NCBI GenBank assembly: GCA_944371305.1 | Contig: CALVXM010000010.1 | Span: 1 to 40,418 of the forward strand | Direction of reading: 5' to 3' | From: an uncultured Bacilli bacterium | GTDB taxonomy: Bacteria; Bacillota_I; Bacilli_A; RF39; UBA660 | DNA: 40,418 nt | Part shown: piece by piece, positions 83 to 8,572 of the stretch | Layout of the letters: each line of letters begins with the position of its first letter | Position numbering within the stretch: position 1 is the stretch's first letter | The notes under the pieces: model-generated | The model's database searches: none | The model's input: the letters and a program-made list of their open reading frames with translations, nothing else | What the model was told of the DNA's origin: nothing | Made by a program: the position numbers and the translations under genes

Positions 83-822
83 ATGAGAAAAAAAGGATTT
101 ACATTAATCGAATTATTAGCAGTAATATCATATTTGCTATAATAGCTTTGATAGCCACACCAATTGTATTAAATGTGATTAATGATGCGAGAAAATCAGC
201 TGGACTATCAGAAACAGAGATGATAATGAGTGGCATCAACAATTATTGTGCGACATCAGCAATGAAAAATCAATTAGATGGAAGTGTTGATATATGTACA
301 GATGATGATGGAGTAACTATTGATGATGTAAGCAAAATGGTAAGTTTAGGAAATGCTGAAGTATTAGAAGTAGAATACAGTAATAGTAAAGTAACCAAAT
401 TAAAAGTCAAAAGTAATAACTATGAATTTGAATTACAACCAGATGGCAGTTTTAGTGTTAATGGAGAAACAACAGATCCAGTAGATCCAACCCCAGAGGA
501 ACCAGAAGGAGAAAGCTTAATAACAACATTATTAGAACAAGTTGGAACCAAAGGATTAGTTCAAGATGAAACAAATAGTAATATCTATTATTATGTAGGT
601 GGAAAAGATTCCTATTTAGACATAAAAGATTATTTTTGGTTAGGGAATCGTGAGAGTTCGTCTGACATTCGTAGCGTGAGCGACAGTGGTATATCCAGCA
701 GCGTCGACCGTCCGTCGGATGCGTATGGCGTGCGTGCAGTTCTCTATCTGAAGTCAGGGGCTTCAGCCTTAACCTTCACAGGAGGAAATGGAACGGCCCA
801 GTCACTTTATGAACTAAACTAA
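83..822 (+). pseudogene. Type IV prepilin-like surface protein with C-terminal lectin-like module; frameshifted near the N-terminus
   Basis: ATG at 83 opens MRKKGFTLIELLAVI, the class III prepilin signal with methylation site (GFTLIE), but that frame stops at 140. One frame over, the text continues as IFAIIALIATPIVLNVI up to the stop at 820. A single missing base near 128 explains both halves; restoring a G would give AVIVIFAIIALIATP. An alternative TTG start at 64 runs open through the region but destroys the signal peptide. The middle holds an acidic, Pro-rich linker (about residues 135-150 of the open frame). The C-terminus has YFWLGNR and later GVRAVLYLKSG and TGGNGTAQS, a pattern I associate with C-type-lectin-like (FISUMP/DUF6273-type) modules of gut Firmicutes. 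The part between these motifs looks shortened. Bases 649-740 are GC-rich and A-poor, unlike the rest of the window. No strong ribosome binding site precedes ATG 83. It may be a true pseudogene or an assembly error. Confidence 0.72.
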
Positions 823-8435: not shown

Positions 8436-8447
8436 ATATGGGTACTT

Positions 8448-8524
8448 GGGGAATTAGCTCAGTTGGCTAGAGCATCTGCCTTGCACGCAGAGGGTCAGGG
8501 GTTCGAGTCCCCTATTCTCCACCA
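8448..8524 (+). tRNA. tRNA-Ala (anticodon UGC)
   Basis: Acceptor GGGGAAT pairs with ATTCTCC. The D stem GCTC/GAGC is standard. The anticodon stem TCTGC/GCAGA closes CTTGCAC, giving anticodon TGC. The T arm has GTTCGAG, and the CCA end is encoded. Translation across it gives the familiar spurious peptide LAQLARASALHAEG, which is not a protein. Confidence 0.97.
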
Positions 8525-8536
8525 AGTAGGTAAGCG

Positions 8537-8572
8537 AGTGGCAATTATTCTAGTAGTAATTGCCACTTTTCT
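8537..8572 (+). terminator. Terminator of tRNA-Ala
   Basis: GTGGCAATTA (8538-8547) pairs with TAATTGCCAC (8557-8566), extended by A8537-T8567, then TTTTCTATTT. Confidence 0.85.

Follow-up and report, generated by a model that had tools for sequence, protein, structure and literature searches.

Bases 655-739 of the window, by which we mean the whole 40,418-base stretch of DNA analysed here, are very probably the variable repeat (VR) of a diversity-generating retroelement (DGR) target gene that has since decayed. The repeat lies on the forward strand, as do the features of its gene and flanks given below, is 85 nt long, ends at the VR/template-repeat (TR) boundary GTGCGTGCAG and belongs to a second TR lineage, lineage B. 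The feature itself is a remnant of a known DGR kind; the dispersal of the templates that belong to its family is less ordinary.

The repeat stands out by its composition. A sequence-only reading of the window had noted that 34 of the 60 bases at 661-720 are G or C and 12 are A, all in one frame, and a recount agrees (A12, C16, G18, T14); the background over the whole window is 26.2% G+C and 39.1% A. Among 40,359 overlapping 60-mers, 103 hold at least 34 G+C, and these fall into two clusters only, 654-771 and 8440-8545, the second of which contains a tRNA gene (8448-8521). Confinement to two clusters argues that the shift at 661-720 exceeds chance. It lies inside a single open frame, 64-822, flanked by the motifs YFWLGNR (631-651) and GVRAVLYLKSG. 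The shift is real, but the block runs past 661-720, taking in the VR at 655-739 and a 3' hairpin, to about 771. Eight VRs of this genome, the window's included, have a G+C content of 0.46-0.59 and the TR cores 0.44-0.52, so the composition is a family trait. Recent transfer of a G+C-rich segment, which the earlier reading had named as the alternative, has the composition and nothing else in its favor; the patch coincides with a VR and its hairpin, and an equal patch recurs in family VRs elsewhere in this genome. We have rejected horizontal transfer, which we consider barely credible. Repeated rewriting of adenines to any base (A-to-N), starting from a template already above the genome in G+C, would by itself leave an A-poor, G+C-rich patch.

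Where is the retroelement that could have written such a repeat? A DGR-type reverse transcriptase (RT), for which the sequence-only reading had pointed to the rest of the genome, is found on contig C23, where an A-rich TR at the start of the contig is followed by MutS-I-like, Avd-like and RT genes. The RT gene is the one RVT_1 gene of the genome over the cut-off (E 1.8e-16). Its closest solved structure is 8ub7 (E 5.7e-30; the next entry has 9.6e-10), which we take to be the DGR reverse transcriptase of phage BPP-1, and its PIGNLTSQ and YMDD align to PIGSLTSQ and YMDD of that structure. The best NCBIfam model, a group II RT, scores below its cut-off. By the 8ub7 match and the motifs, the enzyme is predicted to belong to the DGR group of RTs. 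The adjoining gene, which scores significantly but below the curated cut-offs of both bAvd (E 1.6e-9, 38.6 bits; cut-off 40) and DivGenRetAVD (E 5e-10, 39.6 bits; cut-off 80), is the putative Avd gene by which a DGR is recognized beside its RT, and the third gene carries a MutS domain I over the cut-off (E 2.4e-5). PHROGs returned a family of RTs, a pilin family matched weakly by the target gene on contig C25 (E 2.8e-4) and families without known function, and PADLOC returned RTs of many kinds and nothing for Avd; neither set of results was used for classification. A fragment of a second RT (G000:C2:104307-104519), 61% over residues 261-331 and with a stop, is a trace of another DGR.

A protein search with the target gene of contig C29 returned 15 matches, the window's among them, spread over 13 contigs. 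Since one gene on C5 was matched in two pieces, these amount to 14 target-family places, 13 of them besides the window. The C25 target gene has a prepilin-type signal and two VRs. Compared with the TR on C15, its VR1 is changed at 15 of 26 adenines and none of 53 other bases (p 1.4e-9) and its VR2 at 12 of 26 and again none of 53 (p 1.9e-7), with equal counts when gaps are disallowed. This TR/VR pair carries the signature of a DGR, with template (C15), target (C25) and RT (C23) on three different contigs. Against the RT-adjoining TR of C23, the same two VRs have 11/53 and 10/53 non-A differences. In an ungapped rescan of the own-genome stretches compared, C25/C15 is the only pair within four non-A differences, and no VR comes that close to the C23 TR. 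The end of C25 shares exactly 77 bases with that of C16, which runs on into a degenerate TR, and this overlap makes the two contigs likely, though not certain, neighbors. If they are, the TR belonging to C25 is defective, and a different template wrote the C25 VRs. On C11 (L016 7362-8054) and C1 (L015 6544-7461), the ends of target genes run into a TR-like core and its 3' flank; these fused ends close with ..VRADSF or ..VRAYSF and a stop, in an apparent recombination of VR1 with a TR.

The window VR was aligned to 15 TRs with neutral alignment scores, lineage-B TRs of congeners reading like YSSSNVRNVNNNGN...GVRADSF. Relative to one of the two best congener TRs, 12 of 25 adenines and 8 of 57 other bases are changed (p 0.0016), and relative to the other, 13 of 27 and 7 of 54 (p 0.0009); both p-values are optimistic, as these are the best-scoring two of 15 templates. 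Counted in reverse, by the adenines of the window VR, the changes are 2/15 and 1/15. Outside the VR, where the window gene was compared with four paralogues, adenines are changed at a rate of 0.08-0.16 and are never the most changed base; that base is C against all four, and A slightly exceeds G and T only against the C4 paralogue. The bias is present in the VR and not outside it and depends on the direction of counting, and is therefore local and directional.

One could propose instead that a ligand-binding loop simply diverged fast under selection, with no retroelement involved, since the loops of lectin folds are variable in many families. We regard this as very improbable: the differences fall on template adenines and in one direction, and the C25 VRs keep every non-adenine position of their template twice over. 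A DGR thus remains the preferred origin of the window VR. Of the three checks suggested by the earlier reading, those for an RT and for an A-specific pattern favor it; TR elements exist, and the VR is A-biased against those of congeners, but no exact template for it is present in its own assembly, which is 92% complete. Its non-A differences from own-genome TRs are 15/63 (C11) and 12/55 (C5). An ungapped scan of the loci then available, in which template adenines were left free, likewise gave no exact template; the matches listed are poly-A-rich chance matches apart from one real TR, in congener G008, with 4 non-A differences in 45. It also counts against the assignment that, of seven other lineage-B VRs of this genome compared with their best-scoring TRs, in a set without C14, C1m, C11, C4, C26, C8, C15 and C3, C29_v1, C29_v2 and C22_v2 are not significant (p 0.09-0.13) and C22_v1 is borderline (p 0.05).

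What has become of the window gene? The longest open frame containing the VR (64-822, 252 aa from a TTG) is a degenerate target gene whose product has no Pfam match at E 0.1. Alignment to the C29 paralogue places at 83-142 a stretch, MRKKGFTLIELLAVI..., which we take from its motif to be a prepilin-type signal. This signal (ATG at 83, MRKKGFTLIELLAV) is out of frame with the VR-bearing tail; one base is missing relative to the C29 paralogue, in the one assembly at hand, and the signal frame stops at 140-142. An in-frame N-terminal signal of the KGFTLIEL type, present in paralogues such as C4 and C25, is absent from the window copy. Further on, at 597-609, an internal deletion brings together two stretches that the C29 paralogue keeps about 320 nt apart, as seen from overlapping matches of the middle segment to the C29 locus (L013 8012-7732 and 7408-7365). 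The flanks of the VR are of two kinds. The 5' flank (601-652) is identical to the VR1 flanks of C5a, C29 and C22 at 38-44 of 52 positions and to their VR2 flanks at 14-19, whereas the 3' flank (740-822) agrees with their VR2 flanks at 56-66 of 83 positions and with their VR1 flanks at 14-18. C5b resembles the window copy on both sides (45/52 and 68/83), and is therefore a VR1/VR2 hybrid of the same kind. We infer that recombination between the two VRs of the window gene joined a VR1 flank to a VR2 flank; decay would also have removed the stretch of about 320 nt and put the prepilin signal out of frame, the order of events being a matter of reconstruction. With a frameshifted signal, an internal deletion and hybrid flanks, the window copy is not intact, and the gene looks dead. 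The earlier proposal of a DGR target or the remnant of one holds in its second form, given the A-directed differences of the VR and the DGR in the same genome; the surface-displayed binder with a pilin-signal N-terminus that went with it does not, because the signal exists but is out of frame with the tail.

Elsewhere in the genome, the prepilin signals of both C5b (L012 about 4777) and C1m (L015 about 7528) are interrupted by a stop at codon 5, and C5b is also frameshifted; target copies of this genome are damaged in differing ways. A phase-variable signal was considered and rejected, since codon-5 stops in these two copies and a base shift in the window amount to no common switch.

Just 3' of the window VR, at 748-766, lies a hairpin with a stem of 6 bp after a base change. 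Behind the five lineage-B C-terminal VRs compared (C5a_v2, C29_v2, C22_v2, G015_v2 and G008_v2), the hairpin consists of an 8-bp stem with a 3-nt loop; in C5b the stem is 7 bp. Stems of at least 7 bp occur in the 50 bases after 12 of 19 VRs, compared with 6.1% of 4,000 random 50-mers; by this test, the five lineage-B internal VRs have a stem of only 4-5 bp.

Might the window locus nevertheless be an active target, its frameshift an assembly error or phase variation and its TR absent from the contigs? Because TR elements and targets are located at contig ends, templates may be lost in repeats; moreover, the frame of the VR-bearing tail is still open, and the C25 target agrees at every non-A site with a TR of another contig. 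We nonetheless consider continued activity unlikely, because this copy has lost the segment of about 320 nt, joins a VR1 flank to a VR2 flank and has a weaker 3' hairpin, because the nearest TRs differ at 7-8 non-A sites, and because no TR element was seen between 822 and 1035 by eye or among the matches of the family searches. Broken copies could also form a silent archive that donates ready-made VRs to intact targets by gene conversion, in the manner of silent pilin cassettes. The window, C5b, C1m and C11 copies are indeed broken or shortened yet keep VRs, and flanks are mixed, but the matches of the family searches include no near-identical copy of the window VR, and plain decay accounts for identical facts; we find an archive more doubtful still. 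The window gene is best described as a remnant DGR target.

The gene that follows the window feature is presumably rpsB, and the conserved stretch before it, 826-1034, anchors the site among congeners. Stretches upstream of rpsB were collected from 13 congeners, and 11 were examined, those of 55 and 451 bases being left out. Four of the 11 (G009, G010, G014 and G003) have a prepilin-like or target-like gene there, followed in G009 by a truncated TR element about 20 bases past the gene. A TR remnant stands at the contig edge in G017, a different gene in G013 and no gene in five other congeners. The window gene has therefore probably decayed at a site that is also in use in some congeners. The anchor stretch is matched at 82-90% in all 11 congener loci, in six of them only from about 845; a search of the window against Rfam at gathering thresholds gave no match for 826-1034, which is possibly a leader RNA.

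The fold of the target proteins was approached through the intact C29 paralogue, whose sequence has no match at E 1 among solved structures and whose inner part is assigned by Pfam to DUF6273. In its predicted model (mean pLDDT 77.6, 14 sequences), residues 317-502 resemble the C-terminal domain of Legionella Lcl (Z 7.4, rmsd 3.5, 114 aligned) and mannose-receptor-type C-type lectin domains (Z 4.5-5.3), both by VIA-align. Residues 100-309 resemble 9qa6, an IgA peptidase of Thomasclavelia ramosa, in its N-terminal part (Z 14.8, rmsd 2.6, 174 aligned, 24% identity), and, more weakly, lectin domains (Z 4.5-4.7). Foldseek alone returns one match under E 0.001, again 9qa6. Both VR-bearing halves of the modeled paralogue thus lie near known folds, and the target proteins are probably lectin-like, Z scores of 4.5-7.4 being suggestive, not proof. 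The lectin-like tail of the sequence-only reading gains moderate support from this comparison, though the window copy is without much of the domain. Intact targets would be displayed on the cell surface.

A search of the genome with the TR stretch of C23 found long copies on C15, C1 (at its end), C30 and C5, all four without an adjoining RT, together with partial copies fused to target genes on C1 (97.4 kb) and C11 and a short degenerate copy on C16. Contigs C1, C15, C16, C23, C25 and C30 break at or near TR elements and targets, so short-read assemblies may under-count both. Among 18 genomes of the genus, the TR element was matched in 15 and the RT protein in 16 (E 1e-10), and nine have a complete or almost complete RT with at least 70% identity. 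We counted by hand 25 elements that span the query from position 46 or before to 238 or beyond, leaving out shorter matches. Seven have an RT within 3 kb; 16, in 11 of the 18 genomes, stand alone, with at least 1.4 kb downstream and no RT match in it; two (G001 C80 and G009 C6) fall outside this classification. A target gene adjoins the element in four of the 16 stand-alone cases, the four that were checked (C5 of this genome, G008, G004 and G010). Several genomes that have stand-alone elements show no close RT, perhaps because their assemblies are incomplete.

Do such cassettes carry the adenine signature as well? We hand-picked seven from the available congener loci, four RT-linked and three without RT, and pooled their 14 VRs: changes affect 167 of 359 adenines, 22 of 278 C, 22 of 262 G and 16 of 224 T. 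Thirteen of the VRs reach p 2.4e-3 or lower; the exception is the second VR of G008 (8/25 A, 11/57 non-A, p 0.17). In a G009 cassette, which has no RT on its contig, the ungapped rescan finds changes at 9/26 adenines in one VR and 12/26 in the other, with 0/53 other bases changed in each. The DGR of G015 (L028 5598-8705) has three genes, tyrosine-recombinase-like by eye, between its target and its TR-RT part.

The TR elements also appear to share an RNA scaffold. In an alignment of 18 of the 25 copies (six RT-linked and twelve stand-alone, 316 columns), the consensus forms a 5' hairpin and a helix of columns 67-78 with 225-236, which pairs the 5' flank of the TR core with a stretch about 150 columns downstream. 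Overall, 97.6% of cells pair, compared with 37-49% after sliding. In three pairs of this helix both partners change, mostly from one TR lineage to the other. There are 13 cells changed on both sides, a figure that kinship may inflate; shuffling gives 4.9 on average and reaches 13 in none of 500 runs. Pairs changed on both sides number 4 against 2.5, a value reached by 40 of 500 shuffles, and these double changes may amount to few events. We regard the covariation as moderate support for a structured template RNA. Rfam, searched at gathering thresholds with six loci, has no family for the element.

These observations suggest a working model. A template RNA of about 290 nt would consist of a 5' hairpin, an A-rich TR core and a conserved 3' part that pairs across the core. 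The RT encoded on C23, together with Avd, would reverse-transcribe this RNA and misread its adenines, and the cDNA would replace VRs in the lectin-like domains of prepilin-like surface proteins, acting in trans; the hairpin behind the VR may help to mark the site. For the genus as a whole, we lean, with some reserve, towards a single RT station serving many dispersed units, each a prepilin-like gene with two VRs and a template RNA of its own. The templates would share a covarying scaffold with interchangeable cores and also write elsewhere, and their repeats would recombine, leaving fossils such as the window gene.

How does this arrangement compare with known systems? Like the DGR of Bordetella phage BPP-1, it has a DGR-type RT, an Avd-like gene, A-to-N differences between TR and VR, a VR in a domain that is here probably lectin-like, and a hairpin just 3' of the VR, which has a role in the phage. 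It differs from BPP-1 in that intact targets carry two VRs each, most TR elements counted lie away from an RT and the window gene is damaged.

Published DGRs already include cases with remote targets, with more than one TR and with activity in trans (PMC4891356, PMC7517822, PMC10907252, PMC6642488); a term search of PMC8144416 gave nothing relevant. Passages on Treponema denticola and cyanobacteria describe DGR targets that are remote, paralogous and dispersed and, in T. denticola, a leftover target with a VR that corresponds to a TR different from the current one (PMC4891356, PMC7517822). In those accounts it is the targets that are remote, whereas here TR elements are dispersed too, adjoining a target in four cases. 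According to the relevant section on Thiohalocapsa PB-PSB1, VRs at other loci match a distant TR at all non-adenine sites, and incomplete loci reflect transposon damage or remote targets (PMC10907252). The present genus resembles that strain, as described there, in a VR that matches a TR elsewhere at all non-A sites and in the incompleteness of some loci, and differs in that stand-alone TR elements built on a common scaffold occur in 11 of its 18 genomes. The survey passages on MetaCSST list 216 of 271 multi-VR DGRs with only one TR and the rest with several (PMC6642488), and in them stand-alone TR elements are not compared within a genus. We have not met stand-alone target-TR units across a genus in the open-access literature, which weakly supports their novelty.

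The window gene illustrates that a compositional anomaly can flag a DGR target whose RT is out of view. It also draws attention to uncultured Bacilli of one genus whose prepilin-like and probably lectin-like proteins owe their diversity to several templates. Should the dispersed units be confirmed, the recognition of templates in trans by a DGR RT would become testable, because natural templates share a scaffold and differ in their core. Copies such as the window gene suggest, in turn, that VR and TR repeats collapse targets through recombination.
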